This document shows positions 6,903-42,363 of a stretch of 64,000 bases of DNA, one piece after another. The notes below the pieces were generated by a model. It ran no database searches. It had not been told where the DNA came from and was given only the letters and a program-made list of their open reading frames with translations. Source of the DNA: Oscillibacter valericigenes (GTDB lineage Bacteria > Bacillota > Clostridia > Oscillospirales > Oscillospiraceae); NCBI RefSeq assembly GCF_016902445.1, contig NZ_JACSNX010000004.1, forward strand, positions 1 through 64,000, read 5' to 3'. Made by a program: the position numbers and the translations under genes. Positions within the stretch are counted from its first letter, which is position 1. Each line of letters starts with the position of its first letter.

Positions 6903-7766
6903 ATGTGGCTGCTGTTTGCGGCTGGATCGGCATTTTTCGCAGGTGTGACGGACATTCTGGCCAAGTGCGGCATCCGAAGGACGGACTCCACGGTGGCCAC
7001 CGCGATCCGAACCATCGTCGTTCTGATCTTTGCATGGATCATGGTATTTTTGGTGGGGTCCCAGGAGCAGATTCAAACCATAGACCGGACGACGCTCTTG
7101 TTTCTGATCCTGTCCGGGCTGGCCACCGGCGCTTCTTGGCTGTGCTATTTTAGGGCGCTTCAAATCGGCGACATCAACAAGGTGGTGCCCATCGACAAAT
7201 CCAGCACCGTGCTCACCATCCTGCTGGCCTTCCTCCTGCTGGGAGAGCCCATCGGCCTGTTCCAGGGGATCGGAGTGGTGCTGATCGGCGCGGGCACCTT
7301 CCTGATGATCGAGAAGAGGCAGCAGAAAGGCCCACGCGGGGGCTCTGGGAAGGGCTGGATGCTCTGCGCTTTTGGCTCCGCTATGTTTGCCAGCCTCACC
7401 GCCATTCTGGGCAAGGTGGGTATCCAGGGGGTGGAGTCCAATCTGGGGGCCGCCATCCGCACCGGGGTGGTGCTGGTCATGGCCTGGGTCATGGTGCTGG
7501 TGACCGGCAAGGCCAAAGCGGTGCGGCAGGTGCCACGGCGCGAGTTGATCTTCATCTGCCTGTCCGGTATCGCCACCGGCGCCTCCTGGCTGTGTTACTA
7601 CCATGCCCTTCAGGACGGCCCCGCCAGCGTGGTGGCCCCCATCGACAAGCTGAGCATTCTGGTCACGGTGGCCTTCTCCTACCTGGTGTTCCATGAGCGG
7701 CTGACCCGCCGCTCCGGTCTGGGACTGGCCCTGATCGTGGCCGGGACGCTGGCCATGCTGATATGA
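6903..7766 (+). CDS. EamA/DMT-superfamily transporter
   Basis: A 287-residue inner-membrane permease with about ten transmembrane helices arranged as two EamA repeats. The duplication is visible as LSGLATGASWLCYFRAL in the first half and LSGIATGASWLCYYHAL in the second, each followed by a PIDK motif. Such proteins export amino acids or other small metabolites; the substrate cannot be told. It directly follows the two-component genes and ends at a strong terminator, so it probably belongs to their operon. Confidence 0.87.
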   Translation: MWLLFAAGSAFFAGVTDILAKCGIRRTDSTVATAIRTIVVLIFAWIMVFLVGSQEQIQTIDRTTLLFLILSGLATGASWLCYFRALQIGDINKVVPIDKSSTVLTILLAFLLLGEPIGLFQGIGVVLIGAGTFLMIEKRQQKGPRGGSGKGWMLCAFGSAMFASLTAILGKVGIQGVESNLGAAIRTGVVLVMAWVMVLVTGKAKAVRQVPRRELIFICLSGIATGASWLCYYHALQDGPASVVAPIDKLSILVTVAFSYLVFHERLTRRSGLGLALIVAGTLAMLI

Positions 7767-7772
7767 CAAGGC

Positions 7773-7804
7773 AAGCGGCGGGGCTGGGCCCGCCGCTTTT
7801 GTCT
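7773..7804 (+). terminator. Intrinsic terminator after the DMT transporter
   Basis: A 10-bp stem (AAGCGGCGGG with CCCGCCGCTT) with a six-base loop is followed by a short T-rich tail. Confidence 0.8.
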
Positions 7805-7895
7805 CAATTCATTCATAAAGATGCCTCCTTGGTCTGAAGATGGAATTTGTCGGCAATTTGCCCCGCCTTTAAATATGATGACAATATACCCCAGG

Positions 7896-7949
7896 AAAAT
7901 GAGAAAACCATGAGGATCCAATGAGGTTTTTTCACCGGATTCTCATTTT
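7896..7949 (+). promoter_or_regulatory. Direct-repeat array upstream of a response regulator gene
   Basis: ATGAG occurs at 7899, 7910 and 7921, exactly 11 bases apart, the helical-turn spacing used by OmpR/PhoB proteins that bind as tandem monomers. The block is framed by a perfect 10-bp inverted repeat, AAAATGAGAA (7896-7905) and TTCTCATTTT (7940-7949). It sits 46 bases before the start of the response regulator at 7995, suggesting autoregulation. Confidence 0.55.
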
Positions 7950-7994
7950 TCTCCGTTAAGATAGAGCGCATATCAATCAAGGAGGTGAACGCGT

Positions 7995-8672
7995 ATGCGT
8001 GTTTTGGTGATTGAAGACGATGCGGCGCTGAATGGCATCCTGGCCAAACGCCTGGCGGAGGAGGGCCACTCCGTGGATTGCTGCTTTGACGGCAGGGACG
8101 GCCTGGACTACGCGGAGGCGGCGGACTACGACTGCATCGTCCTGGACTGGATGCTCCCAAAGATAGACGGGCTGACGCTGCTGCGCAGGCTGCGGGGCGG
8201 GGGAAACCACGCCAACGTCCTGCTGCTCACGGCCAAGGATTCCATCGAGGACCGGGTGGCCGGGCTGGACGCCGGGGCGGACGACTATCTGGTGAAGCCC
8301 TTCTCTTTTGACGAGCTGCTGGCCCGGGTCCGGGCTCTGCTCCGCCGCCAGAGCGAGGTGCGAAGCCCTGTACTAAAGCTGGATGATCTGGTGATGGACA
8401 CGGCCAGCAAAACCGTCCAGCGGGCCGGGAAAAAGCTGCTGCTGACCTCCAAGGAGTACGCCCTGCTGGAGTATTTGCTGCGCCACCAGGGGCAGACCCT
8501 GACCCGCTCCCAGATCTCTGTCCACGTCTGGAACTTCGACTTTGACTACGACTCAAACATCGTGGACGTGTACATCCGGTACCTGCGCAACAAGGTGGAC
8601 AAGCCCTTTTCCAACAAGCTGATCCACACCGTCCGGGGCTTTGGCTATGTGATGAGGTGCGGCGATGCGTAA
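7995..8672 (+). CDS. Response regulator, OmpR family
   Basis: A 225-residue two-component regulator with a receiver domain (VIEDD, phosphoacceptor D in CIVLDWMLP, T in LLTAKD, K in VKPFSF) and a C-terminal winged helix ending RGFGYVMRCG. The ATG follows AAGGAGGTG at the ideal eight-base distance. The partner kinase gene overlaps its last bases but is interrupted by a stop codon, so this regulator may now be uncoupled or respond to other phosphodonors. Confidence 0.92.
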   Translation: MRVLVIEDDAALNGILAKRLAEEGHSVDCCFDGRDGLDYAEAADYDCIVLDWMLPKIDGLTLLRRLRGGGNHANVLLLTAKDSIEDRVAGLDAGADDYLVKPFSFDELLARVRALLRRQSEVRSPVLKLDDLVMDTASKTVQRAGKKLLLTSKEYALLEYLLRHQGQTLTRSQISVHVWNFDFDYDSNIVDVYIRYLRNKVDKPFSNKLIHTVRGFGYVMRCGDA

Positions 8673-9993
8673 GGTATCCATCCGCATTCAAATCATGCTC
8701 TGGTACACCCTGCTCACGGCGATCTTGCTGGCGGTATCCCTGCCGGTCCTGTACGGCGCCATGGCGGGGTCCCTGCGGCGGGACTAGGAGGCGTACCTCC
8801 GCTCGGCGGCGGGCCAGCTGGCCTCCCACATCGAACTGGAAGATGGCGATCTGCGGCTCCTCAACGACCTGGACCTGCCCGCTGGGACCCAGTATCTGCT
8901 CAACACGGAGTCTGGCGGACGGATCGTATCCAATGAAAACGCCTGGGCGGACGCGCCCGCCTTTCAGCCCGACGAGGTCTATCTGTCCTCCACCGGGCGG
9001 GGGGACCAGCTCTACCTGGATCAGGAGTTGGAGCTGGAAGGGGGAGAAAAGATCCGGATCCGGGTCTCCCGCTCCAACGGCACGGTGGAGCGGTCCCTGG
9101 ACCAGCTCCAACTGGTGATGCTGCTGGCCGTCCCCGCGTTCCTGGGGCTGGCTGTCTTTGGCAGCTACTTTCTGGCCAAGCTGGCCCTGCGTCCCATTGA
9201 CCATATTACCGAAACGGCGGTGTCTCTGGGGGCCGGGAATCTGTCCCGGCGGATCACAGGTATCGAGAGCCGGGACGAGGTGGGGCGGCTGGCGGGGGCC
9301 TTTAACGGGATGCTGGCCCGCCTGGAGGACTCCTTCCAGCGGGAGAAGCAGTTCACCTCGGATGCCTCCCACGAGCTGCGCACCCCGGTCTCCGTCATCA
9401 TGGCCTATGCGGAAAACCTGGCCGCCCATGCCCCCGACCGGGAGACGGTGGAGCAGGCATCCGCCATTCTGACGGAGAGCCGGAGAATGCACAGCATCAT
9501 CGCCCAGCTGCTGGCCCTGACCCGGGGCTATGAGGGAAAGTACCAGCTGTCCCTGGAGGAGATCACCCTGGCGGAGATGGTGTCGGACGTGCTGGCGGAG
9601 CTGACGGAGGCGGCGGCGGCCGGCGGCATTACCCTGATCGAGCAGGTGCCGCCCCGCATTCAGCTCTCCGCCGACCAGAGCCTGATGACCCAGCTGCTGC
9701 TGAACCTGGTGGAGAACGGGATCAAATATGGAAAGGCAGGCGGCACCGTCGCGGTCAACGCGCTGGAACAGGACGGGCATATCCTTCTGACCATCCAGGA
9801 CGACGGCATCGGGATCGGGGAAAAGGAGCTCCCCCATATTTTTGACCGCTTTTACCGGGCGGATCAGGCCCGGGACCGCAGCGGCTCCGGGCTGGGGCTC
9901 TCCATTGTGAAATGGATCGTGGAGGTCCACGGCTGGACCATCCAGGCGGCCAGCGAACCGGGGAGAGGCGCCCGGTTCACCATTCAGATTTAA
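8665..9993 (+). pseudogene. Sensor histidine kinase interrupted by an in-frame amber codon
   Basis: From the ATG at 8665 the frame encodes a first transmembrane helix, then meets TAG at 8785-8787 (codon 41) and continues without shift to 9993. The downstream part has the second transmembrane helix, a HAMP linker, HisKA (phosphoacceptor in DASHELRTPV) and HATPase_c (NLVENGIKYG, DDGIGI, GSGLGLSI). Everything except the single stop looks intact, so the lesion is recent, a sequencing error, or bypassed by reinitiation. Other genes here end in TAG, so general amber recoding is not supported. A fragment restarting near 9028 would keep only the second helix and the kinase core. Confidence 0.8.
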
Positions 9994-10013
9994 TCAGATT
10001 TAACAGGACAAGA

Positions 10014-10054
10014 AGAGCCGGCATCCGGAGCAAACCGGGTGCTGGCTCTCTTTT
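10014..10054 (+). terminator. Intrinsic terminator after the kinase pseudogene
   Basis: An imperfect 15-bp stem (AGAGCCGGCATCCGG with CCGGGTGCTGGCTCT, two G-T pairs) with loop AGCAAA is followed by CTTTTG. Confidence 0.7.
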
Positions 10055-10061
10055 GAGGCGC

Positions 10062-10304
10062 TCAGCGTTTGTGATGCCCTGTGCGGTGCTGAACCGCATG
10101 AGGCTGCACAGGTTCCTGTTTCTGGGGCAGGAGCGTCAGAACTGCCAGCGCGATGGCGCTCACACAGAGTACCAGCAAAAGCTTGGACGAGATCGTGTTG
10201 CCGGAGAAGTTCATCATGGGGTTATACCAGTCCAAAACGGCGAAGGTGAGAAAACACAGGGAGAGAATGATGACCAGATTGGAGAGGATCATTCGGATCT
10301 TCAT
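10062..10304 (-). CDS. Small two-helix membrane protein
   Basis: An 80-residue protein with two hydrophobic helices (about residues 8-25 and 42-60) separated by a short polar loop and ending in a basic, histidine-rich tail. I do not recognise the family. Its start overlaps the stop of the upstream phosphodiester-glycosidase pseudogene in the order ATGA, so it was the last gene of an operon whose first members are now broken. It may be a relic with no remaining partner. Confidence 0.6.
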   Translation of the reverse strand: MKIRMILSNLVIILSLCFLTFAVLDWYNPMMNFSGNTISSKLLLVLCVSAIALAVLTLLPQKQEPVQPHAVQHRTGHHKR

Positions 10305-11204
10305 GCGGAAGCCTCCTTTTTGGGTTCACAGATACAGATGCAGTCAGAAATGGTCTTGGAGGGCTTGTAGGAGTGGTTGACATATCGGTTTTCCAGAGTC
10401 ATGAAGACCGTGTGGCCACCGTCCAGATTGTAGGCCGCGGCGCAGCCCAGACCCTCAAAGACCTGCGCCAGCTCCGGGAGGCTCATTCCCCTGGAGTATC
10501 CCGGCTGGCGTCCATCCACCGTTACAAAGCAGTAATGGCCGGGCTCGTAGTAGCCCAGTGCGGTGCGGGGGTGGATCTTCTTGATATAGTCCCAGGTGTC
10601 AAAGGTTTTCAGGGCCTTTCCCCTGTCATCCAGCAGGCGGGGACCGAAGACCCAGGTCTGGAGGATCCCCTGCTACAGTGCCGCCTCTGGGTCAAACTGA
10701 TTGGGGCCGTATGTGGCCATGGTCCCGTCCTGGTAGAGCACGCAGCCCGTTGGCATCATATTTTTCGCCGGCAAATTCGGTCTGAAAAGAACGCAGATCC
10801 GCCATGTAGATATCCGCCACATAATAGGTCACGGCATCACTCCTGCGGCCAAAGGTGTGCTGCGTGACCTCCACGGAGAGGTCGGGGCTGGAATAACTGG
10901 TACCGGTGGAGACCACCGTGTCCGTGAAATGCTCCGCAAATTTTTCCCGCAGGCTGAGGGGCTGGGTTTGCTCCGGCGCACTTCTGGTGATCTCCGTGAC
11001 CTGTTGATGTGCGGAGGGCTGGAGGTTGTTCTGCACCTGAGGAAGGGACATGGATGACCCTCCCAGCCCCTGTATGGGGGCAATGTACAGAAAGAAATAA
11101 TTCCCGAACACCAGCAGCGCCGCAGCCAGCACATCCACCAGCAGAAACAGCGCTGCGGGCCGGCGGCGGGCGGCAGCCGGAGACGTCCTTTTACGCATGG
11201 ACAT
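10301..11204 (-). pseudogene. Phosphodiester glycosidase (NAGPA/DUF2233) family protein, broken
   Basis: The N-terminus (start 11204) has a basic segment and one membrane helix, followed by the family core (SSPDLSVEVTQHTF, VTYYVADIYM). Near 10740 the frame shifts by one base; it resumes as VLYQDGTMATYGPNQFD, then meets TAG at 10673-10675, then continues through QTWVFGP, ALGYYEPGHYCFVTVDGR and AAYNLDGG to the natural end. Two independent lesions make it a pseudogene. Family members remove sugars from phosphodiester-linked glycans at the cell surface. A truncated GtrA gene precedes it. Confidence 0.8.
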
Positions 11205-11370
11205 GGCGGGCCGCCTCCTTTTTCTCCGGCTTCTTTCCGCGGAAGATCACCAGTGTCTGGACGGAAAAGCTGACGGAAAACAGGGTCACCTCGGTGATCA
11301 GCTTGGCGGCAGGCGCCGGCAGGCCCAGGGCGGTCAGCACCTGCAGCAGAGTGCTGTTGGCCAGAAGGAC
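11191..11370 (-). pseudogene. GtrA-family membrane protein, C-terminal fragment
   Basis: Only the last 55-60 residues remain (LLQVLTALGLPAPAAKLITE through QTLVIFRGKK), matching the final two helices of GtrA-like flippase-associated proteins, whose ending is typically a Q-x-x-x-V-F motif. The upstream half is replaced abruptly around 11370 by sequence belonging to a protease gene on the other strand. Its end overlaps the start of the glycosidase pseudogene by 14 bases, showing that they once formed an operon for surface glycans. Confidence 0.65.
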
Positions 11371-11373
11371 CCC

Positions 11374-11643
11374 GGCGGAGCCGCCGCGGCGGCGGGGCTC
11401 CAGGTGGGGGATGTCATCACCCGGATCGATGGGACGGAGATCCGGACCATGACAGACCTGTCTGCGGCAAAGAAGTCTTACACCGCAGGGGATACCGCCC
11501 GGTTCACAGTCGTCCGCGGGGGACAGAGCCTGCAGATCACCGTGACATGGGGGGCGGAGCCGGATCCCGCCGCATCCGCTTCCCAAAACGCACAGGGACA
11601 GGCGCCCGGCGGCTACGGCCCCTATGGGGCCTGTTCGGCCTGA
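11374..11643 (+). pseudogene. HtrA/DegP-type serine protease, C-terminal PDZ fragment
   Basis: On the plus strand the reading GAAAAAGLQVGDVITRIDG, followed by RFTVVRGGQSLQITVTWG, is a PDZ domain end plus the Gly/Pro/Tyr-rich tail typical of clostridial HtrA proteases. No trypsin-like domain precedes it; the sequence to the left belongs to the GtrA fragment on the opposite strand. This is a remnant left by a deletion or inversion with its breakpoint near 11370. Confidence 0.65.
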
Positions 11644-11673
11644 CGCCGTACTACGGCGGGTGAGCGGGCATAG

Positions 11674-11712
11674 ACATGCGGCCGGGGACAGGTCCCCGGC
11701 CGTATGTTTTAC
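11674..11712 (+). terminator. Intrinsic terminator after the HtrA remnant
   Basis: ATGCGGCCGGGGA pairs with TCCCCGGCCGTAT around a short loop, followed by GTTTTA. It was probably the original terminator of the protease gene. Confidence 0.65.
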
Positions 11713-11811
11713 GGACAGTTTAACCGCCGTTTCCGGTCTGTTTAATCCCCCAATTTACACTGAGCACAGGAAGACGCGGATCAGACCGGTTGAAAGAGGG
11801 ATCGCCATCTT

Positions 11812-12492
11812 ATGAAAATGCAGCAGACAGAGGGGCGTCGCTCTGCCGTCCGAAGGGCGCCGCCGGAACAGACGGAGGAGCCTGGGAGAGAGGCGGGTGC
11901 AGGCGGAATCCTGCGATATGTCTCCCTGCTCGGCCTGATCCTCTGTGCCGTTTTGGCCGTTCTGGCCTGGAACAGCGGACTGCTGACTTCCCGGCAGGCC
12001 ATGTCCGCCTTCATCCGGAGAGCGGGGTTCTGGGGGGCGCTGCTGTTTCTGCTGCTGCAGACGGTGCAGGTGGTGATCCCGATCCTGCCCGGCGGGGTCA
12101 GCTGCCTGGCCGGGGTGCTGATCTTCGGCCCCTGGTGCGGATTTTTGTATAACTACCTCGGGATCTGCGCCGACTCCATGCTGGCGTTCCTGATCGCCCG
12201 CCACTTCGGACGCCCTCTGCTGGGGCGGATCTTCCGCCCCGAGCAGCTGGAGAGATACGACCGGTGGATGCGGTCCCGCAGGCACCTGTCCCGCTGGCTG
12301 GCGGCGGCTATCTTTTTCCCTGTGGCGCCGGACGATTTCCTGTGCTATCTGGCCGGGACCACTCCGCTCTCCTGGAAGACGTTCACCGCCATCATCTGGC
12401 TGTGCAAGCCGTTTTCCATTGCCCTGTACAGCGCGTTCCTGCTGCTGGGCTGGACGAATCTCCTGTCATGGCTGCATTTGGGAGGTATGTGA
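11812..12492 (+). CDS. TVP38/TMEM64 family (VTT domain) membrane protein
   Basis: A 226-residue membrane protein with a charged 35-residue N-terminal tail and about five helices. The VTT/DedA-like signature is visible in VVIPILPGGVSCLAGVLIFG and later FPVAPDDFLCYLAG. Related proteins are proposed phospholipid or lipid-carrier scramblases of the cytoplasmic membrane. It opens a tightly packed operon with a glycosyltransferase, a zinc-ribbon membrane protein, a PAP2 phosphatase and a GntR regulator, a set that suggests envelope lipid or glycolipid handling. Confidence 0.85.
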   Translation: MKMQQTEGRRSAVRRAPPEQTEEPGREAGAGGILRYVSLLGLILCAVLAVLAWNSGLLTSRQAMSAFIRRAGFWGALLFLLLQTVQVVIPILPGGVSCLAGVLIFGPWCGFLYNYLGICADSMLAFLIARHFGRPLLGRIFRPEQLERYDRWMRSRRHLSRWLAAAIFFPVAPDDFLCYLAGTTPLSWKTFTAIIWLCKPFSIALYSAFLLLGWTNLLSWLHLGGM

Positions 12493-12493
12493 T

Positions 12494-13534
12494 TTGTCTG
12501 TCTATCTCTATCCCGGCGGCTTCCGCCTGGTCTGCAGGAGCGGGATCGGGCAGGCCCTGCTCCACCAGCGAAGGGCCCTGGCGGCGGCCGGCATCCCCCT
12601 GGCACAGTCGATGCGGGAGGGGCAGATCGTCCACATCAACACGGTGTTCCCGGACGCGCTTTTGGCCGCTCTTGCAGCCCGCCTCACCGGGAAAAGGGTC
12701 GTCTATTACGCCCATTCGACCATGGAGGACTTTCGCCGCTCCTTTCCCGGCTCGAACTGGCTGGCCCCGCTGTTCAAGCGGTGGATCAGGCTGTGCTATC
12801 AGATGGGAGACGTCGTCATAACGCCCACGGACTACTCCAGACGGCTCCTTCTGGAATATGGCATCCGAAAGCCGGTCTACAGTCTTACAAACGGTGTGGA
12901 CACAGACTTCTTCTCTCCGGACGCGGCTCGGCGGCGTGCCTTTCGGGAGAGATACGGGCTGTCAGAGGAGGATCGGGCCGTCATTTCCGTGGGGCATATG
13001 ATCGAGCGCAAGGGGATCCTGGACTACATCGCCCTTGCCCGGCAGATGCCGCAGGTCCGGTTCTACTGGTTCGGCGATACCCCCGCCTGCCTGATACCGC
13101 GGGCCGTCCGCCGGGCGATGGCGGCGCCGCCGGACAATCTGTGCTTTGCAGGCTACATCGGGCAGAAGGAGCTCCGGGACGCCTATTGCGGAGCAGATGC
13201 GTTTGCCTTTCTCAGTTATGAGGAAACAGAGGGCATCGCGGTGCTGGAGGCGCTGGCCTGCGGGATCCCGGTGATCTTGCGGGATATTCCGGTCTATCAG
13301 GGGTGGATCCCGGAGGGAGACGGGATCTGGAAGGCCCGTGATGCGGCCGGGTTCCGGCAGGCGGCGGGTGACGCGCTGGCCGGCTCCCTCCGTGAGACGG
13401 AGGGGACCGGCCGCAGGATCGCGCTTGACCGCCGACTGGCGGCGGTGGGACAGCGTTTGGCGGCGACCTATCAAAAGGAATTTCCGGTTTCCAGAAGCGA
13501 AACCGACTGCGAAAATGAGGAGGTCATCTCATGA
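12494..13534 (+). CDS. Glycosyltransferase family 4 protein
   Basis: A 346-residue GT-B glycosyltransferase. The N-terminal fold starts SVYLYPGGFRLVCRSGIGQAL. The C-terminal donor-binding half shows SVGHMIERKGI and the E-x7-E signature in ETEGIAVLEALACGIPVI. The start is TTG at 12494 with GGAGGT seven bases upstream, two bases after the previous stop. It would add a sugar from a nucleotide donor to a lipid or glycan at the inner membrane face. Similar short GT4 enzymes neighbour diacylglycerol glucosyltransferases, but the acceptor is not deducible. Its end overlaps the next start. Confidence 0.87.
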   Translation: MSVYLYPGGFRLVCRSGIGQALLHQRRALAAAGIPLAQSMREGQIVHINTVFPDALLAALAARLTGKRVVYYAHSTMEDFRRSFPGSNWLAPLFKRWIRLCYQMGDVVITPTDYSRRLLLEYGIRKPVYSLTNGVDTDFFSPDAARRRAFRERYGLSEEDRAVISVGHMIERKGILDYIALARQMPQVRFYWFGDTPACLIPRAVRRAMAAPPDNLCFAGYIGQKELRDAYCGADAFAFLSYEETEGIAVLEALACGIPVILRDIPVYQGWIPEGDGIWKARDAAGFRQAAGDALAGSLRETEGTGRRIALDRRLAAVGQRLAATYQKEFPVSRSETDCENEEVIS

Positions 13535-14154
13535 AACACTGGAAAGAGCGGATCCTGCAGATGAAGTTCGGAAGGGTGGTCAGGCGATTGGCCATTTTCT
13601 CTGTCTGCGCAGTCCTGCTGGGAGGGATCCTTTCCGTGGTCCTGCTCCAGCCGCAGATTTCCCAAATCACTTCAGCTGCACAGCAGGAGGAGCAGATCGA
13701 TGCATTCCGGGGAGAGTGGTCCCATGACTGGGAGGGCTGGGACGATGCACATGGCATCACAGAGCCTGCCCTGCCGGTGAAGGTCGCTCTGCTTGCGCTG
13801 GGAGTGGTGTTCTGCGCACTGGTAGCAGCGTGGTGGCTTCTGGTGCCTGCCTGGCTCTTCCAGGCATCAGTGCGCGCACGGATGAACACGCTGGTGTGGC
13901 CGCTTTTGGGACTCCTGTGGAGCCTATGGGGACTGATCCTGTTCCTGGTTATCCGCAGTCTCCTGCGCCAGCGGTGCGCTGCCTGCGGCACCTGGCAGAG
14001 AAAGGCGTCCTTCTGCACCGCCTGCGGCAGGAGCTTCCATGTGACATGTCCGACCTGTGGGGCGGACTGCAGTCCGGACGACCGACACTGCGGCCGCTGC
14101 GGCGCTTCCCTGCAGCCCGCTGCGGAGGCAGCCTCCGGCAGAGAGGACAGGTGA
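13531..14154 (+). CDS. Membrane protein with C-terminal double zinc ribbon
   Basis: A 207-residue protein with transmembrane helices at about residues 20-40, 86-112 and 118-136, followed by a cytoplasmic tail carrying three CxxC-type knuckles (CAACG, CTACG, CPTCGADC) and a fourth (CGRCG), the arrangement of a double zinc ribbon. I do not recognise a named family. The ATG overlaps the glycosyltransferase stop by four bases, so it is translationally coupled. The ribbon could act as a protein-docking module for the membrane-bound enzymes on either side. Confidence 0.75.
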   Translation: MKHWKERILQMKFGRVVRRLAIFSVCAVLLGGILSVVLLQPQISQITSAAQQEEQIDAFRGEWSHDWEGWDDAHGITEPALPVKVALLALGVVFCALVAAWWLLVPAWLFQASVRARMNTLVWPLLGLLWSLWGLILFLVIRSLLRQRCAACGTWQRKASFCTACGRSFHVTCPTCGADCSPDDRHCGRCGASLQPAAEAASGREDR

Positions 14155-15236: not shown

Positions 15237-15276
15237 AAAAAGCTCGGCGCAAGCGATATGTCGCTTGCGCCGAGCT
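15237..15276 (-). terminator. Intrinsic terminator of the tRNA-Ser pair
   Basis: On the minus strand a perfect 16-bp stem (15261-15276 with 15241-15256) and a four-base loop are followed by TTTT. The stem begins at the encoded CCA end of tRNA-Ser(GCT). The rest of 15031-15236 contains no recognised feature. Confidence 0.85.
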
Positions 15277-15369
15277 GGCGCAGAAGGAGGGATTTGAACC
15301 CTCGCGGCGTTTTTTAGACACCCTACTCCCTTAGCAGGGGAGCCCCTTCGGCCTCTTGGGTACTTCTGC
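15276..15369 (-). tRNA. tRNA-Ser (GCT anticodon)
   Basis: A 94-nt class II tRNA on the minus strand. The acceptor GCAGAAG pairs with CTTCTGC. The anticodon loop reads CTGCTAA with anticodon GCT, a long variable arm is present, the T-arm contains GGTTCAAATCC, and CCA is encoded. Confidence 0.95.
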
Positions 15370-15395
15370 AGATATCCTATGAACTTGAAACGATG

Positions 15396-15483
15396 TGGCG
15401 GAGAGAGTGGGATTCGAACCCACGGACGCTTGCGCGTCGCCGGTTTTCAAGACCGGTTCCTTCAACCGCTCGGACATCTCTCC
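15396..15483 (-). tRNA. tRNA-Ser (TGA anticodon)
   Basis: An 88-nt class II tRNA. The acceptor GGAGAGA pairs with TCTCTCC. The anticodon arm CCGGTCTTGAAAACCGG carries TGA. A long variable stem (GACGC/GCGTC), a T-arm with GGTTCGAATCC and an encoded CCA are present. It is cotranscribed with tRNA-Ser(GCT). Confidence 0.95.
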
Positions 15484-15649: not shown

Positions 15650-15725
15650 CCGGGTGTGGCGCAGTTGGTAGCGCGCTTGACTGGGGGTCAAGAGGCCGTG
15701 AGTTCAAGTCTCGCCACTCGGACCA
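15650..15725 (+). tRNA. tRNA-Pro (GGG anticodon)
   Basis: A 76-nt tRNA. The acceptor CCGGGTG pairs with CACTCGG (one G-U). The D arm has GCGC stems, the anticodon stem is CTTGA/TCAAG with loop CTGGGGG (anticodon GGG), the T-arm contains GTTCAAGTC, and CCA is encoded. Confidence 0.93.
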
Positions 15726-15980: not shown

Positions 15981-18900
15981 TCAGAACAGGCTCAGCTGCT
16001 CGGCGTCTCGTCGGCGGCCTGCCGTTTCCCGGGCCACCGCCTCCGGCAGTTCCCTCAGGAAGGGGGATGGCTCCGGGGCGGAGGTGAGGATCAACTCCTC
16101 ACGGGCACGAGTCAGCCCGACGAAGAACAGGCGCCGCTCCTCCTCCACGTCCGCCGGACGGCCCGGGGACTCCAGAGGCAGCGCCCCGGCGGAGAGGCCG
16201 GCCAGGAACACCGCCGGGAATTCCAGCCCCTTGGCGCCATGGAGCGTCATCAGCCGCACGGCGCCGGAGGCCCAGTTTTTCCCGGCTGCCCGCTGGAGGT
16301 CCGCCTCCTGGCCCAGGACCAGGGCGTTCCAGAGGCTGTCAAAGTCCTCGTGGAACACCGCTGTGTTCCGCAGCCGCTCCAGGGCGGGGGAGGTGCCGTA
16401 CTGGGCCTCCCACTGCTCCACCAGCTGCCGGGGCTTTTTGGCCCGGACCCAGGGCAGCCATTCTTCCGCCCGGTCCAGCCAGGCCTCCAGGATGCCGTGG
16501 CCCCGCACGGCCTCCCGCAGGGCCGCCGGATTCAGCGCGTCTGCGGCTTGGCAGGGGGACTGGGCTTTTTGAATGAGGTCCGCCGGGCAGTCCCACAGCA
16601 GCCGCAGGGCGGTCTCCAGCGCCGCGCCGTCCGACGGCTCCAGCAGAAAACGGAAAAACGCCAGGGCACCCCGGACTGCCGGATCGTCCAGAAAATCCTC
16701 CTGCCCGGTGACTAAGCAGGGGATGTCGTCGTGGCGGAGGCACTTCTCCACCAGCTCCAGCTGACGATGAGTACGGCAGAGGACGGCAATGTCGGAGAAG
16801 GCCCGGACGGTCCGTTCGTGATCCAGGGCCTGAGCCTCCAGCATATCCACGCCGCCGGTCATGCGGCCGATCTCCTTGGCGATGAACACCGCCTCGGAGA
16901 AGCCGTCCGCCGCCTGCACCAGCCGCACCGGGGGGCCTGCGGGCCGATGGGGGACCAGGGTCCGGTCCCCGCCGGGATTGCGGGCGATCACCGCCAGAGC
17001 CGCCTCCAAAATGGCGGGGGCGGAGCGGTAATTTTCTGTCAGGCGGATTTCCTTTACATTCGCGACATCTTCAAGCAGCCGCTGGAAGCAGCGGCCCGAG
17101 GCGCCCCGGAATCCATAGATGGACTGGTCCGGGTCGCCGATGACGAACAGATCCCCGTTCCGGCTCCAGGACCGGACCAGCTGATACTGGGCATCGTTGA
17201 TGTCCTGGAACTCGTCCACCAGCAGGTGGCGGAAGCGCCGCAGTCCGGTGACGTCTTTTTTCAGCCCCTCCGTCAGCAGGTCATCAAAGTCCAGGGCGCC
17301 CAGCTCACCCAGTCGGGTCTGATAGGCCTCAAACAAGTCTCCATCCAGGCCCGCGTCCTCCAGAGAGGCGCCGTTCTTCACCCGGGAGACGGCCTGGAGC
17401 AGCGCTTTCCCGCCGCCCTTTTTTCCGCTTTCCCGCAGCACCTGCTCCGCGATGGTCAAAGCCTCGCCGGGGCTGATGAGCCGTACATCTCCCAGGAGAT
17501 CCAGACAAATGGAATGGAACGTGCCGATGGTCATGGGGCTCACCGCCCGTTTCCCGCCCAGCCGCTGCTCCAGCCGGGCGCGCATCTCCGCGGCGGCCTG
17601 GTTGGTGAAGGTGACGGCGGTGATTTCCCCGGGACGGACGCCCTTTTCCTCCACCAGCCAGGCGATCCGGGCCACCAGGGTCTTGGTCTTGCCGGTGCCG
17701 GGGCCCGCCGCCACGGCTGTGACAGCTGCCTCAGAGGTGACAGCCTCCAGCTGCCGGGGGTTCAGGTCCTCCGCCTGGGGAGCCTCCGGGACCGCTTCCG
17801 GCGCCACAGAGTGCTTCTTCAGCTCCCGGCGGGGCTTGGGCTTCCCTGGGGGCACGTCCAGACCGAACAGGGAGATCTGTCCGCTGAACCGGGCGATCTC
17901 GCCGGGGGTCAGCAGGGAGATGACGCCGTACTCCCCGTCAAAGCCCGGCCTGCGCTCCACCTGGCCGGAGCGCAGGCGGCGGATGCCCTCCGCCACGCAG
18001 GGATCGGCAGTGCGGGCGATGTCCTCCGCCGGCACCTCCCGCAGGATGGAGAACTCCGACCCCAGCTTCCGGAGCATCTGCTCGTACAGGGCCTGGGTGG
18101 CCTTTCCGGAGGCGGAGGCACCGGTGGAGGCGGCGATGACCTCCGGCAGGGGGGCCAGACTCTCAAAGGGCTTGGCGGTTTCGGGCCGGAACCCGGCGGG
18201 CCGATCCGCCAGAGCTTCCACCCGGTGCTCCACGCCGATGGTCAGCTTCTTTCCGCACACCGGACAGACACCGCCCAGGGCTGCCGTCTCCGCCGGGGTC
18301 AGGCAGACGCCGCAGTTCCGGTGGCCGTCCAGGTGGTACTTGCCCTCCTCCGGGAAGAACTCCACCGTGCCGCGAAATCCCTCCCCGGTGCGGATGGCCC
18401 GGAGCAGCTCCGGGTAGGTCAGGCCCGTGTCCAGCAGATCCGCCTCCCGGCCCAGCTTGGAGGGGGAGTGGGCGTCGGAGTGGGACACCAGCGTCAGACC
18501 GTCCAGGGCGGAGACCCGCCAGTTCATGGGCGGGTCTGAGGAGAGGCCGGTCTCCACCGCATGGATGTGGTCCGTCAGGTCGCCGAAGCATTCCTCCATG
18601 GTGTCAAAGCCGGAGAAGGCGCCGAACAGGGCGAAGTGGGGCGTCCAGATGTGGGCGGGGATGAATTCCGCGTCGGGGCAGGTCTCCAGCGTCAGCTCCA
18701 GCAGGTCCCGGCTGTCCAGTCCCAGGATGGGCCGGCCGTCGGAGCGGATGTTGCCGATGGCCTCCAGCCGGGCAGAGAGCTCGTCCGCCGCCTCCAGAGA
18801 GGGCAGGAGGATCAGGTTGTGGACCTTTCGAGTCTTGCCGTGGCGCTTGTAGATGCAGCTGATCTCCCCGGTGATGACGAACCGGGGCGCCGGTCCGGGG

Positions 18901-19124
18901 GCACCGTCCGGCAGGCGCAGGTCCTCCCGCAGGGTGTAGAGCCCCTCTCCGGCAGGCACCAGCTGCTCCCGCAGCTCCGCCCGCCAGGCGGGGTGGGTGA
19001 AGTCCCCGGTGCCCACCAGACCGATGCCCTTCCGCCGGGCCCACCAGTCCAGATGGGGCAGGTCTCCGTCTTTACTGGTGGCCCGGGAGAACCGGGAGTG
19101 GATGTGGAGGTCGGCGATGTACAT
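15981..19124 (-). CDS. EndoQ-like PHP nuclease fused to a UvrD/PcrA-type DNA helicase
   Basis: A 1047-residue fusion. Residues 1 to about 410 are a PHP-domain protein of the TIGR00375/endonuclease Q type: ADLHIHSRFS (H7, H9), GTGDFTHP (D41, H44), ITGEIS, PAHIWTP, SHSDAHSP, and a zinc knuckle with CGVC near 270 and CPVC near 287. EndoQ nicks DNA 5' of deaminated bases. QISLF at about 416-420 follows. From about 465 a superfamily 1A helicase begins: GPGTGKT Walker A, VTFTNQAAAEMRARL, DEFQDIND, GDPDQSIYGFRG, TLHGAKGLEF, VGLTRARE. The last five residues are QLSLF. The start is the ATG at 19124 preceded by AGAGGGGG. Nicking followed by unwinding is an inference from the fused parts. Confidence 0.85.
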   Translation of the reverse strand: MYIADLHIHSRFSRATSKDGDLPHLDWWARRKGIGLVGTGDFTHPAWRAELREQLVPAGEGLYTLREDLRLPDGAPGPAPRFVITGEISCIYKRHGKTRKVHNLILLPSLEAADELSARLEAIGNIRSDGRPILGLDSRDLLELTLETCPDAEFIPAHIWTPHFALFGAFSGFDTMEECFGDLTDHIHAVETGLSSDPPMNWRVSALDGLTLVSHSDAHSPSKLGREADLLDTGLTYPELLRAIRTGEGFRGTVEFFPEEGKYHLDGHRNCGVCLTPAETAALGGVCPVCGKKLTIGVEHRVEALADRPAGFRPETAKPFESLAPLPEVIAASTGASASGKATQALYEQMLRKLGSEFSILREVPAEDIARTADPCVAEGIRRLRSGQVERRPGFDGEYGVISLLTPGEIARFSGQISLFGLDVPPGKPKPRRELKKHSVAPEAVPEAPQAEDLNPRQLEAVTSEAAVTAVAAGPGTGKTKTLVARIAWLVEEKGVRPGEITAVTFTNQAAAEMRARLEQRLGGKRAVSPMTIGTFHSICLDLLGDVRLISPGEALTIAEQVLRESGKKGGGKALLQAVSRVKNGASLEDAGLDGDLFEAYQTRLGELGALDFDDLLTEGLKKDVTGLRRFRHLLVDEFQDINDAQYQLVRSWSRNGDLFVIGDPDQSIYGFRGASGRCFQRLLEDVANVKEIRLTENYRSAPAILEAALAVIARNPGGDRTLVPHRPAGPPVRLVQAADGFSEAVFIAKEIGRMTGGVDMLEAQALDHERTVRAFSDIAVLCRTHRQLELVEKCLRHDDIPCLVTGQEDFLDDPAVRGALAFFRFLLEPSDGAALETALRLLWDCPADLIQKAQSPCQAADALNPAALREAVRGHGILEAWLDRAEEWLPWVRAKKPRQLVEQWEAQYGTSPALERLRNTAVFHEDFDSLWNALVLGQEADLQRAAGKNWASGAVRLMTLHGAKGLEFPAVFLAGLSAGALPLESPGRPADVEEERRLFFVGLTRAREELILTSAPEPSPFLRELPEAVARETAGRRRDAEQLSLF

Positions 19125-19234
19125 GGAAGTCCCCCTCTGTCGAATCAAGTCGACCTCATTATACCCCCTCCGCTCCCGCCGCGCAAGGCGGCGGAAAAAG
19201 CGGTCCGGCGGAAGACCGCCGGACCGCAGAGACA

Positions 19235-35377: not shown

Positions 35378-35474
35378 CGGGAGACCTCCTTGGAAATTCT
35401 TCAAGAAACAGGATAGCACGAATCGACGGGATATGCTACAATGACTTTTGAAATCGCGCAAAGGAGGTCCCGCC

Positions 35475-38400
35475 ATGCTGACGATCCTGATGGGCCGGGC
35501 CAAAACGGGAAAATCGGAACAGGTGCTCCGCCGAATCAAGGAACTGGGGGATTCCGGCCAGCAGATCCTGCTGGTGCCGGAGCATGCCTCCCACCAGGCG
35601 GAGGTGGACCTGTGCCGCTTCTGCGGGGATACCGCCAGCCGCCATGCGGAGGTCCTTAGCTTCCGCCGTCTGTGTGACCGGGTGCTGACCCTGACCGGCG
35701 GCGCCGCCCGGGTGACGCTGGACGCCGGCGGCAAGCTGCTGACGCTGCAGAAGGCCCTGGGGGAGGTGGCTCCTCTGCTGAAGGTCTACCGCCGCCCCTC
35801 CCAAAAGGCGTCGTTTTTGCAGCAGCTGCTGGACCTCTTTGACGAGCTGCGCTGCTACGACGTGTCCCCGGCGCTGCTGGAGAGCCAAGCCCGGGAGATC
35901 CAAGGGGCCAGCCGGGACAAGCTGCTGGATCTGAGCCTGCTGTACGGGGCTTATGAGTCCCGGCTGTACCGTCCCGGCTTTGACGCCCGGGACCGGATGA
36001 CCAGGCTCTGCGAGGCGCTGGGACCCTCCCGCTACGTCTTCGGCAAGGACGTGTTTCTGGACGGCTTCACCTACTTCAACGCCCAGGAGCGGCAGGTGCT
36101 GGAGACCATAGCGCGGCAGGCCCGGTCCGTCACCGTCACGCTGCTGGGGGAGCCGGACAGCGCCGAGGAGATGTTCCAGGTTTCCCTCCGCACCCGGGAC
36201 CAGCTGGCGCGGCTGGCGGAGAAGGCGGGCTGTCCCTGGGAGGTCCGGACGCTGACCCGTGCCGACGACTCTGCCCTGGGCCATCTGGAGCGGTACTTCT
36301 TCGGAGAGGGGGAGCCCTACGAAGGGGACAGCGGCGCCATCCGCGTCCGGGAGGCAGACACCGCCTTCTCCGAGGTGGAGCAGACGGCGGCGGACATCCG
36401 AAACCTGGTGGCGGCGGGAAAGTGCCGCTACCGGGACATTACCGTGGCCGCCCGGAACATGGCGGACTACGAGGGCATCATCGAGACAGTGTTCGAGCGG
36501 TATGAGATCCCCGCCTATCTGAGCCGCCGCAGCGACATGCTGGAAAAGCCCGTGTGGAGCCTCATCACCGGCGTCCTTTCCGCCCTGGAGAATGGCTTTG
36601 AGTATGAGGACATGTTCCGCTGGCTGAAGACCGGCCTGGCGGGGCTGACGCCGGAGGAGTGCGACCTGCTGGAAAACTACGTCCTCACCTGGGAGATCCA
36701 CGGAAAGATGTGGCTGCGGGACGTGGACTGGACTGACAACCCCGACGGCTACGGCGCCCCCTGGAACGACCGGCGGCAGGCCCGGCTGGAGCAGGTGAAC
36801 GACCTGCGCCGCCGGGTGCGGGAGCCCCTGGCAGCTCTGAATGAGGGCCTGAAAGCCGGAAAAACTGCCGGCGAGAAAGTGGATGCCCTTTACAGCTTTT
36901 TGGAACGTCTCGACCTCCAGGGCACCCTGGAGGAGCAGATGCGCGCCCAGGCAGAGGCCGGCCGGCTCCAGGAGGCGGAGGAGACTGCCCAGCTGTGGGA
37001 GATCCTCTGCGCCATTCTGGACCAGTTCGTGGAGATCCTGGGAGATGAGCCCATGAGGACCGACGAATTCAGCCGCCTGCTGCGGCAGGTGGCCTCCCAG
37101 TACAGCGTGGGCACCATCCCGGTGTCCCTGGACCAGGTGTCCGTGACGGAGATCACCCGGAACGACCGGCACACGGACCGGTATCTGTTCCTGCTGGGAG
37201 CCAACGACCACGTGCTGCCCGCCGTGGGCCAGAGCGGCGGCATCCTGAATGACGACGACCGGGAGGAGCTGGCCCTCCGGGGCATCCGCCTGGCCCCCAG
37301 CGGCATGGAGCAGATGAGCATCGAGCTCCAGAATCTCTACGCCGCCCTGGCCCAGCCCACCGAGGAGCTGGTGGTCAGCTACGCATCAGCGGACGTGTCC
37401 GGGGCGGAGCTGCGGCCTGCCTTCGTGGTGGACCGGCTGCGGACGCTGTTCCCGGCGGTGCGGATAGAACACGAAAAAAATGACAAGGATTATCGCTTGA
37501 CAGCATCAATCCCGGCACTGGAGGCGGCCGGAACGGCCCCGGATGGGCCCCTGTGGCGGTATTTTGCGGGATCCTCCGACTACGCCGCCCCGCTGGCGGC
37601 CATGGAGCGGGCGGCGGCATTGAAGCGGGGCCGCCTGTCCCGCAGCGCTGTACAGGCGCTGTACGGGGAGCGGATCTCCATGTCCGCCTCCCGGATGGAG
37701 CGGCTGCGGAGCTGCCACTTCGCCTACTTCATGGAGTACGGTTTGAAGGCCAAGGCCCGCCGCCCGGCGGCCTTTGACGCCCCCCAGATCGGCACGTTCC
37801 TCCACTACCTGCTGGAGCACGTCACGAAGGACGTGCTGGACCGGGGCGGCTTTGCCGCCGTGGGGGAGGAGGACCTCCACGCCCTGGTGCGGCGGTACAT
37901 CGACCAGTACGCAGAGGAAGAGCTGGGGAATCTGGAGGGCCGGAACGCCCGGTTCCGGTATCTCTTTGCACGGCTGCGGAATACCGCCTACGCGGTGGTG
38001 GACCAGATCGCCCAGGAGATGCGCTGCTCCGACTTCGTGCCCCTGGCCTTCGAGCTGTCCTTCGGCGACAGCGGGGAGCTGCCGGCGGTGACGGTCAGCG
38101 AGCCGGACGCGGAGCTGCGGATCGGCGGCAAGGTGGACCGGGTGGACGGCTGGGTGAAGGACAACAAACTGTATCTCCGGGTGGTGGACTACAAGTCCGG
38201 CAAAAAGGCCTTTGATCTGGCGGCCGTCCGGATGGGCCTGGACATCCAGATGCTGCTGTACCTGTTCGCCCTGGAAAAGGAGGGCAGGCAGCGGTTCGGC
38301 AGGGACATCGAGCCCGCCGGGGTGCTGTATCTCCCCGCCCGGGACGAGATCCTCTCTGCCGAGCGGAATATCACGCCGGACCAGCTCCAGTCCATGCGGG

Positions 38401-38801
38401 AAAAGGAACTGCGCCGGACAGGGCTGCTGCTCTCTGATCCGGAGGTGCTCCAGGCCATGGAGCACGAGGCCCTGCAGAGCCCCCGGTTCCTGCCGGTGCG
38501 GGTGAACCGGGAGGGGGACCTGTCCGGCGCCCTGGCCTCTGCCGACCAGCTGGGACGGCTGGGGCAGTATGTGGAAAAACTGCTCCACCAGATCGCCCGG
38601 GAGGTCCGGGACGGCAACATCGACGCGGACCCCTGCTGCCGCAGCGAGGACGACAGCTTCTGCAAATACTGCGACTGGGCCGACGCCTGCCACTTCCAGG
38701 ACGGGCGGGACGGCGACCATCTGCACTACATCCTGCCGGTGAAGCCGGAGGACTTCTGGCGCCAGGTGGAGGAAGAGACCGAGGAAGGAGGCGGACGATA
38801 A
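35475..38801 (+). CDS. addB: ATP-dependent nuclease subunit B (AddB)
   Basis: A 1108-residue AddB homologue. LMGRAKTGKSEQVLRR near the start is the Walker A-like site of the degenerate helicase half. The C-terminal third has the RecB-type nuclease signature (GGKVDRVDGW, then VVDYKSGKKAF) and the [4Fe-4S] cysteines, one in RSCHFAYFMEYG (about 747) and three in FCKYCDWADAC (about 1062-1071). With AddA it resects double-strand breaks for RecA loading. AAAGGAGGT precedes the ATG, and addA starts one base after the stop. Confidence 0.93.
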   Translation: MLTILMGRAKTGKSEQVLRRIKELGDSGQQILLVPEHASHQAEVDLCRFCGDTASRHAEVLSFRRLCDRVLTLTGGAARVTLDAGGKLLTLQKALGEVAPLLKVYRRPSQKASFLQQLLDLFDELRCYDVSPALLESQAREIQGASRDKLLDLSLLYGAYESRLYRPGFDARDRMTRLCEALGPSRYVFGKDVFLDGFTYFNAQERQVLETIARQARSVTVTLLGEPDSAEEMFQVSLRTRDQLARLAEKAGCPWEVRTLTRADDSALGHLERYFFGEGEPYEGDSGAIRVREADTAFSEVEQTAADIRNLVAAGKCRYRDITVAARNMADYEGIIETVFERYEIPAYLSRRSDMLEKPVWSLITGVLSALENGFEYEDMFRWLKTGLAGLTPEECDLLENYVLTWEIHGKMWLRDVDWTDNPDGYGAPWNDRRQARLEQVNDLRRRVREPLAALNEGLKAGKTAGEKVDALYSFLERLDLQGTLEEQMRAQAEAGRLQEAEETAQLWEILCAILDQFVEILGDEPMRTDEFSRLLRQVASQYSVGTIPVSLDQVSVTEITRNDRHTDRYLFLLGANDHVLPAVGQSGGILNDDDREELALRGIRLAPSGMEQMSIELQNLYAALAQPTEELVVSYASADVSGAELRPAFVVDRLRTLFPAVRIEHEKNDKDYRLTASIPALEAAGTAPDGPLWRYFAGSSDYAAPLAAMERAAALKRGRLSRSAVQALYGERISMSASRMERLRSCHFAYFMEYGLKAKARRPAAFDAPQIGTFLHYLLEHVTKDVLDRGGFAAVGEEDLHALVRRYIDQYAEEELGNLEGRNARFRYLFARLRNTAYAVVDQIAQEMRCSDFVPLAFELSFGDSGELPAVTVSEPDAELRIGGKVDRVDGWVKDNKLYLRVVDYKSGKKAFDLAAVRMGLDIQMLLYLFALEKEGRQRFGRDIEPAGVLYLPARDEILSAERNITPDQLQSMREKELRRTGLLLSDPEVLQAMEHEALQSPRFLPVRVNREGDLSGALASADQLGRLGQYVEKLLHQIAREVRDGNIDADPCCRSEDDSFCKYCDWADACHFQDGRDGDHLHYILPVKPEDFWRQVEEETEEGGGR

Positions 38802-38802
38802 C

Positions 38803-41800: not shown

Positions 41801-42363
41801 CCCACACACCGTACCTCCGGCCCCTGAGCCAGCCCAGCTTCCGGCGGGAGCGGCAGGGCCTGACACCGGCGGAGCGGGGCACCGCCGCCCATCTGGTGCT
41901 GCAGTACCTGGACTTCTCAAACTTTGACGTGGCGGGCCAGATCGAGGCCCTGCGGCAGCGGAGCCTGCTGACGGACCAGCAGGCCGCGGCCGTGGAGACC
42001 GCACCCCTGGAGCGGTTCCTCCGCTCTTCCTTGGCGGAGGAGATCCGCCGGAGCCAAAACGTCCTGCGGGAGTACCGCTTCACTCTGCTGATGGACGCCC
42101 GGGACTATGATCCTGCCGCGGCGGAGGGGGAGACCATCCTCCTCCAGGGCGTGGTGGACTGCTGCTTCGAGACGGCGGAGGGGCTCACCGTAGTGGACTT
42201 CAAGACGGACCATGTGTTCACGACCGCGGAGGTCCGCCGGCGGGCGGAGCACTACCGCCCCCAGCTGGAGGCCTACAGCCGGGCCCTGGAGCGGGTGCTG
42301 GAAAAGACCGTCACCCGCCGGGCGCTGTACTTCCTGGCGGCGGGGGAGACCGTGGACATTTGA
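38803..42363 (+). CDS. addA: ATP-dependent helicase/nuclease subunit A (AddA)
   Basis: A 1186-residue UvrD-type helicase with a C-terminal RecB nuclease domain. SAAAGSGKTKVLVDRL is Walker A (about residues 26-33), DEYQDTNEIQN is motif II, VGDVKQSIYRFR is motif III, MSIHKSKGLEFPIVI is motif V, and VVDFKTDH near 1133 is the nuclease core. It forms the break-processing complex with AddB, whose gene lies one base upstream. Confidence 0.95.
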   Translation: MAKLTLTPQQQAVVENRGGSLLVSAAAGSGKTKVLVDRLFRYVTEERCNIDDFLIITYTKAAAAELRSKIASELSKRLGQTPGDQQLRRQLLRVYQADIKTVDAFCTSLLRENTHLLAREGDSRALTPDFRVLDDNEAQLIRQRVLARALEDFYDQMDQGGALLADTLGAGRDDSRLAALVLELYDKVQSHADPAGWLAENRTVWGSWTGGFDNTPYAAELLTSIRRKGAHWGALLRSASARTEGDEALYRGYGEKFLQVSVAFDALAEVQTWEAARQAEAAIAFPRLSTPKGRKDEPGIAALKQVWERCKAEEKKLAGLLAVSGEEAMEDLTAVAPAMAALLRLTEDFAERYRQEKLRLNAADFSDQEHLALGLLVGPDGAPTELGEQVAARYREILVDEYQDTNEIQNAIFQAVSRNGQNIFTVGDVKQSIYRFRLADPTIFLGKYNRFKPWQEAADGEERKILLSKNFRSRREILESTNFIFSNILSVEMGEMEYGEEEALHFGAEYYPERDDCRTEFHLISAHQKAGENDKPVKKVTAEARFVAARIRQLLDEGYPVTESDGTLRPCRPEDIVILMRSPGSRSAAFAAALAERDIPCSFQESGDFFHTMEISVMVSLLEIVDNPRQDVPLISVLRSPLFGFTPDRLAEVRAAAPTGDYYDAVVIDGGEDCQAFLATLADLRQAGRDMSVHRLIWHIYNRLNVLGVFGAMDDGAARRENLIALSQHAEKFESNGYRGLFAFVTQLRRLLEQDQAPATRGPAEAAGVRLMSIHKSKGLEFPIVILADLDHAFSRQDFDTPVLVHPSMGLGPKRIDLERKIQYPTLARLAIQEKLRRENLAEEQRILYVAMTRPKEKLILVDALYNAPGRLQKLAAVAACPVLPETVAEGRTLGDWILLPLLCRPEAAPLRALAETEIDQLYIGNDSPWQVFLHDSEDYRDRPVRPQVTAEAAGETAPFDLALLSFVYPYQRETALPAKVTATQLKGRQLDQEIAEHAAHTPYLRPLSQPSFRRERQGLTPAERGTAAHLVLQYLDFSNFDVAGQIEALRQRSLLTDQQAAAVETAPLERFLRSSLAEEIRRSQNVLREYRFTLLMDARDYDPAAAEGETILLQGVVDCCFETAEGLTVVDFKTDHVFTTAEVRRRAEHYRPQLEAYSRALERVLEKTVTRRALYFLAAGETVDI

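Follow-up and report, generated by a model that had tools for sequence, protein, structure and literature searches.

An EndoQ-like nuclease fused to a UvrD-like helicase is widespread in a bacterial phylum, carries two clamp-type motifs and may be a clamp-tethered excision-repair enzyme

We analysed a window of 64,000 nucleotides (positions 1 to 64,000 of contig NZ_JACSNX010000004.1, assembly GCF_016902445.1) from Oscillibacter valericigenes. One uninterrupted frame on its reverse strand, 15981-19124, encodes a single 1047-residue protein in which an EndoQ-like lesion nuclease is joined to a UvrD-like superfamily 1A (SF1A) helicase. The original prediction, made from the sequence of the window, had described this single-polypeptide fusion, and as an observation it was confirmed. 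On balance we think that this single chain probably serves as an excision-repair enzyme tethered to the clamp, nicking 5' of a lesion and unwinding the lesion strand, beside or instead of repair by uracil-DNA glycosylase (UDG). The parts of the protein on which this reading draws are listed here with their positions in the window.

15981..19124, reverse strand: fusion gene, 1047 amino acids, comprising EndoQ-like nuclease, disordered linker, UvrD-like helicase and clamp-motif tail
17895..19124, reverse strand: EndoQ-like half, residues 1-410
Within 17895..19124, reverse strand: metal-site residues H7, H9, E87, H102, H158, D217 and H219 and pocket residues G193 and S195 of the EndoQ half
18255..18323, reverse strand: zinc ribbon of the EndoQ half, H268-x2-C271 ... 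C287-x2-C290
17775..17894, reverse strand: interdomain linker, residues 411-450, with a predicted local distance difference test score (pLDDT) below 50 across 416-450
17865..17879, reverse strand: linker clamp-type motif QISLF, residues 416-420, after the consensus in PMC12309361
16017..17774, reverse strand: UvrD-like SF1A helicase core, residues 451-1036
15984..15998, reverse strand: C-terminal clamp-type motif QLSLF, residues 1043-1047, directly before the stop codon

The assignment of the N-terminal half to the EndoQ type was borne out by its fold and by those residues of the active site and pocket that were checked. The predicted structure matches Pyrococcus furiosus EndoQ (5ZB8, 7K30) over 385 residues at 2.5 Å, and the likeness extends along the whole nuclease chain, zinc and C-terminal domains included. 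The PHP metal ligands (H8, H10, E76, H84, H139, D193 and H195 in the P. furiosus enzyme) are present in 29 of 29 fused rows and in 16 of 16 Bacillus-type stand-alone rows. The base-pocket residues, named as H139, G169 and S171 in a passage of PMC8307549, are also present, and every metal-site and pocket residue listed above is kept in all 29 fused rows compared. Loss of EndoQ similarity or of the metal ligands would have spoken against the assignment; both are there. At the zinc site three of the four aligned cysteines are kept, the first (C249 in P. furiosus) is His268 in 29 of 29 rows, and an extra Cys274 is nearly invariant. Identity is 35.6% to P. furiosus EndoQ and 22-32% to the 16 Bacillus-type stand-alones, which are the loci where simple frame-picking worked (11 of 30 from one set and 5 from another) and do not include the B. 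pumilus sequence itself. The NCBIfam model TIGR00375 scored 157.2 bits, below its curated cut-off of 326.6, a cut-off passed by only 2 of 213 matching genomes in a phylum sample of 398 genomes (at least 90% complete, drawn evenly). By fold and residues checked this half is an EndoQ, and its intact residues suggest that it would incise DNA at deoxyuridine (dU), deoxyinosine (dI) and abasic sites.

The C-terminal half had been called an SF1A helicase, and its core was confirmed as such by the Walker A and B and UvrD core motifs and by a UvrD fold. The motifs, under their usual names, are Walker A GPGTGKT (474-480), DEFQD (637-641), GDPDQSIYGFRG (663-674), ENYRS (697-701), TLHGAKGLEF (960-969) and a motif VI ending in TRA (1005-1007). 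The PcrA equivalog model TIGR01073 gave 296.5 bits against a cut-off of 911.2. The Tudor RNA polymerase-binding domain PF21196 had no match in this protein or in five of five other fusions checked; as a control, it was matched in the PcrA-type rows L194 and L197 and not in the paralogue L195. In a tree made by a quick method, as was the EndoQ tree below, 25 fusion helicases form one group separate from 13 PcrA/UvrD-type rows.

Two motifs that the original prediction had overlooked would connect the protein with the beta clamp. The clamp-binding consensus is given as QL[S/D]LF or QxxLF in part of PMC12309361, where QLSLF is also the C-terminal clamp motif of Bacillus subtilis PolC, with a dissociation constant (KD) of 3.8 uM. 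The fusion protein carries such a motif twice in stretches predicted to be disordered (pLDDT below 50 over 416-450, 1037-1042 and 1044-1047). In an alignment of 60 rows (79 frames, of which 72 passed a filter for start, stop and length and 59 were used with the window protein), Q416 is kept in 60 rows, F420 in 56, Q1043 in 60 and F1047 in 59, and most adjacent columns are variable. Among unselected rows, 72 of the 77 frames ending in a stop have the tail motif and 74 of the 76 assessable ones have the linker motif, most rows retaining both together; shuffled controls had a motif in 3.0% of tails and 3.8% of linkers. Five frames are without the tail motif, namely L045 and L062 and the apparently truncated L037, L071 and L078; L020 and L024 are without the linker motif, and the linker region is lacking in 3 of 79 frames. 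At 29 further loci from other families (27 frames among the 29 best-scoring phylum loci, L138-L166, together with L183 and L184) the tail motif was found in 28, the miss being L138, and the linker motif in 26, the misses being L143, L155 and L183. Hits that were fragmentary or broken in frame were checked in their DNA, which gave 12 extra terminated tails; by inspection, 11 of these also end in QxxLF. No clamp motif was seen in 16 Bacillus-type EndoQ rows, in the tails of 14 fusion-type stand-alone EndoQ relatives (by inspection) or in 13 PcrA/UvrD-type rows, one of them an open frame.

The placing of the motifs is suggestive. Archaeal EndoQ binds PCNA (KD 55 nM) through a C-terminal box and is stimulated by it, and deletion of the box abolishes both binding and stimulation, according to a passage of PMC4858679. 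The linker motif follows the EndoQ domain directly, which is the position of this box, so that by analogy it stands where a clamp link is proven. The tail motif stands where PcrA carries its RNA polymerase tether. From these sequence patterns we infer that the two QxxLF peptides dock the fusion protein on the beta clamp.

The distribution of the fusion is broad. A survey across Oscillospirales had been proposed; the fusion does exist there, but its range is far wider. Here and below, counts of fusion genomes are among the matches listed. The fusion occurs in at least 52 of the 398 genomes of the phylum sample and in 23 of its 141 families, and 51 of the 52 genomes belong to other classes than the source genome. 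This tally was made by hand; seven genomes rested on fragmentary hits that were checked in the DNA, and in all seven both halves are present, either in one frame or split by contig ends. The fusion of genome G311 has a frame change close to its start. A search of genome contigs gave 180 related stretches, of which the best 80 were retained; their named titles are mostly Oscillospiraceae or Butyricicoccus-type, Lachnospiraceae-type (Mediterraneibacter, Blautia, Anaerostipes) and Christensenella, and many are just 'Clostridia bacterium'.

We compared the presence of the fusion with that of UDG (PF03167), which is missing from 38 of the 398 genomes (20 named directly and 18 found by elimination from the positives). 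The fusion occurs in 16 of the 38 UDG-negative genomes versus 36 of the 360 UDG-positive ones (Fisher p 2.0e-6), and any EndoQ in 32 of 38 versus 182 of 360 (p 5.5e-5). EndoQ is still enriched without UDG among genomes that have no fusion (16 of 22 versus 146 of 324, p 0.015). When UDG status was permuted inside families, the association had p 0.048 with the fusion and p 0.009 with EndoQ of any kind. At the level of families, a UDG-negative genome is found in 14 of 23 families with the fusion versus 12 of 118 others (p 4.6e-7). In family f30, four of four fusion genomes are without UDG versus one of seven others, three of those four being of one genus. The expectation that genomes with the fusion would lack UDG generally failed. 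UDG is present in 36 of the 52, including the source genome, and four other genomes of its genus that have the fusion or its EndoQ half also have UDG. The idea of an alternative to base-excision repair therefore stands in part: enrichment in UDG-negative genomes and the clamp-type motifs in two places fit it, whereas the retention of UDG by most fusion genomes does not. EndoV was found in 0 of 40 relatives and in 8 of the 398 genomes, none with the fusion, and is thus too rare for its replacement by the fusion to be tested.

In the repair reading that we prefer, the EndoQ half would cut the strand directly on the 5' side of a uracil, a hypoxanthine or an abasic site, so that the break has a 3'-OH on one side and a 5'-phosphate on the lesion nucleotide. 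Such products are described for EndoQ in a passage of PMC4357722, and part of PMC11354406 has the enzyme acting on single-stranded dU and dI DNA as well. Given the polarity of such helicases, the UvrD-like 3'-5' motor would load opposite the nick, on the strand that is still intact, and travel away from the nick; the 5' end with the lesion would be displaced as a polymerase extends from the 3'-OH. PcrA displaces the strand in this manner where plasmid Rep proteins have made a nick. Docking through the two peptides, one after the EndoQ domain and one at the C terminus, would put search, nick, unwinding and resynthesis on newly replicated duplex, and Pol I and ligase would complete the repair. 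A passage of PMC5397179 reports that PcrA pulls down Pol I and ligase, mainly through its N-terminal region. The fusion would run beside UDG-initiated repair and appears to stand in for UDG in some lineages. A bolder form of this reading, which we put forward tentatively and think somewhat less likely than not, is a self-contained, glycosylase-free machine that acts on deaminated bases behind the fork with its own motor and replaces or backs up UDG across many families of the phylum; its two clamp peptides could engage both sites of one clamp dimer, letting the enzyme and polymerase exchange on the same ring.

Several observations weigh against such a coupled enzyme. The retention of UDG in 36 genomes means that the fusion is not simply a UDG replacement. 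Its link to UDG absence within families is weak, with six informative families, two of which have no UDG-negative fusion genome; the family-level test takes any genome per family, so its result depends on the number of genomes per family; and none of these statistics takes account of kinship in the species tree. Eleven genomes have only a short fusion-type EndoQ match (in G188 a contig end has probably cut off the rest of a fusion), and just one of the eleven is UDG-negative. Seventeen of the 398 genomes come from the source genome's class, and the fusion is found only in the source genome and in 0 of the 16 others; it is also absent from 15 other-family genomes of the source genome's order examined. 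Even in the genus it is patchy, being full-length in 3 of 24 other genomes and present as the EndoQ half alone in a fourth. Of the two halves the helicase diverges faster, and the EndoQ tree places 14 stand-alone relatives in several spots among the fusions, which needs six label changes; together these suggest that EndoQ can do without the helicase. The predicted structure has a predicted template modelling score (pTM) of 0.58 and does not fix the relative orientation of the domains. Lastly, the absence of the motif from the Bacillus-type rows is contrary to a remark in a passage of PMC4858679, made there without a test, that bacterial EndoQ homologues carry clamp-like C-terminal motifs. The scattered stand-alones and the single helicase lineage fit one fusion event followed by repeated loss of the helicase, with multiple fusions as the alternative.

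Other explanations have to be considered alongside coupled repair. The two halves could be independent tools on one clamp-bound chain, EndoQ nicking for repair by Pol I and ligase and the helicase acting at forks on proteins, R-loops or RecA and never on the EndoQ nick. The long disordered linker, the faster evolution of the helicase half and the many roles ascribed to the PcrA family in part of PMC5397179 speak for this, as does the finding that no UvrD partner was matched beside the 14 fusion-type stand-alone EndoQ genes. But one helicase lineage (25 rows) has stayed joined to EndoQ across 23 families, with the two clamp motifs kept together in most rows, and we consider independence unlikely, while giving it some weight. 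A catalytically dead EndoQ half that serves as a lesion sensor and only targets the helicase would agree with the change of one aligned zinc ligand from Cys to His. Histidine is a normal zinc ligand, however, and the invariance of the metal-site and pocket residues in the fused rows makes a dead half very improbable. UvrD is the unwinding motor of E. coli mismatch repair, and the fusion might be a strand-marking nickase for mismatch or ribonucleotide-type repair, in which EndoQ, held on the clamp, would cut the new strand where uracil has been misincorporated and the helicase would open that strand so that mismatches can be excised. The clamp motifs would suit this role, but we found no conserved operon partner (the largest neighbour family occurs in 12 of 80 loci), and the specificity for dI and abasic sites expected from the intact pocket would be left unexplained; we regard it as improbable.

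An anti-phage system directed at uracil-containing or otherwise modified phage DNA, with the nuclease and helicase acting like Gabija, seems about equally improbable. It would account for the patchiness in the genus, the helicase half does match GajB models, and a review (PMC8307549, in a passage) mentions a possible antiviral role of bacterial EndoQ. The PADLOC matches listed (25 of 51), the GajB models among them, nevertheless all lie inside the helicase region. The eight flanking proteins scanned are housekeeping-like and gave only three weak PADLOC matches, all of one MarR-type regulator; no Gabija match, and so no GajA adjoining a GajB, was found among them. We therefore do not favour a defence gene. 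The idea of a mobile or phage gene was rejected, since 0 of 3010 plasmid and 0 of 160 phage matching records cover 80% of the protein and the full fusion keeps the same ThrE neighbours within the genus, as set out below. The link of the fusion to UDG absence likewise suggests housekeeping repair rather than defence.

Some individual loci are recorded here as side observations. In genome G037 (L182), one of the 52 with the fusion, the EndoQ and helicase halves share a reading frame but are separated by an in-frame TAG; the gene may be split, decaying or affected by a sequence error. The EndoQ half alone in the genus is that of G403 (L134, 452-1699), whose frame ends just ahead of the linker clamp motif and is followed by a convergent open reading frame near the contig end. 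At L169 and L170 (G275 and G001) a fused and a stand-alone fusion-type EndoQ gene lie within about 10 kb of each other. At L181 (G296) a fusion-type stand-alone EndoQ gene (7501-8814) is directly upstream of an Lhr-type superfamily 2 helicase (8881-13542; Pfam WH_Lhr, DEAD_assoc); this genome also carries the UvrD fusion elsewhere, and EndoQ with Lhr is a possible second pairing of EndoQ and a helicase.

In the window the fusion gene is flanked by a threonine/serine exporter (ThrE) pair, regulators, a MATE pump, a PAP2 protein, a glycosyltransferase and tRNA genes. It is probably transcribed alone, because a strong terminator sets it apart from the upstream ThrE gene and it has its own ribosome-binding stretch.

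19131..19138, reverse strand: likely ribosome-binding site AGAGGGGG, purine-rich, ahead of the ATG, found by eye
19200..19227, reverse strand: strong intrinsic terminator separating the upstream ThrE gene from the fusion gene
15276-15483, reverse strand, and 15650-15725, forward strand: two genes for tRNA-Ser and one for tRNA-Pro, a short way beyond the fusion gene's 3' end

The same ThrE pair adjoins the fusion in all four genus genomes with the full fusion (the source genome, G401, G415 and G421). Six fusion-less genus genomes have ThrE-like genes that the other queried neighbours do not adjoin, and no clean empty site was seen among these stretches, one of which is only 3.5 kb and several of which come from incomplete genomes. 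ARAGORN found no tRNA at the fusion-less ThrE stretches or in the fusion-bearing L135-L137, so the absence of tRNAs at ThrE sites says nothing. In 10 of 80 loci the fusion is followed within a few kb by a DnaE-like gene of the same strand (L066, L050, L054, L056, L058, L059, L062, L063, L071 and L078), titled Mediterraneibacter, Lachnospiraceae, Lachnoclostridium or Ruminococcus turbiniformis; only the copy in L066 (9294-12764) was confirmed as DNA polymerase III alpha. The window also holds AddB and AddA genes at 35448-42363 on the forward strand (ADDB_N, UvrD and PDDEXK domains).

Little is known of how bacteria repair uracil and hypoxanthine when UDG and EndoV are missing, or alongside these enzymes, and the fusion was found in at least 52 of 398 sampled genomes of a phylum that includes common gut bacteria. 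With the bacterial clamp it seems to repeat a clamp link that is established for archaeal EndoQ. If nicking and unwinding are indeed coupled, the fusion would be a one-protein excision pathway, and it might account for the way in which some bacteria without UDG withstand cytosine deamination.

EndoQ is treated as mainly archaeal with few bacterial members in a passage of PMC4357722. The open-access texts searched, seen in part, gave no description of an EndoQ-UvrD fusion, and none of 21 NCBIfam matches is a model specific to it. The fusion resembles the P. furiosus enzyme in fold and in metal and base-pocket residues, and archaeal EndoQ in having a clamp motif directly after the nuclease domain; it differs in its helicase, in a motif of the bacterial-clamp type and in one zinc-ligand His for Cys. 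From PcrA, UvrD and Rep it differs by the missing Tudor domain, a short C-terminal tail ending in QLSLF and a separate helicase lineage. Like Gabija, it pairs a UvrD-like helicase with a nuclease, but its likeness to GajB is confined to the helicase region and its flanks are without a Gabija match. Its proposed single nick 5' of the lesion, with no glycosylase, resembles archaeal nucleotide incision repair by EndoQ and Mth212 as outlined in passages of PMC8307549 and PMC4357722, where the proposed downstream steps fall to separate proteins, whereas the fusion has a motor in the same chain. Nuclease family and helicase family are each known; the fusion unites them in one chain that is widespread and carries its clamp-type motif twice.

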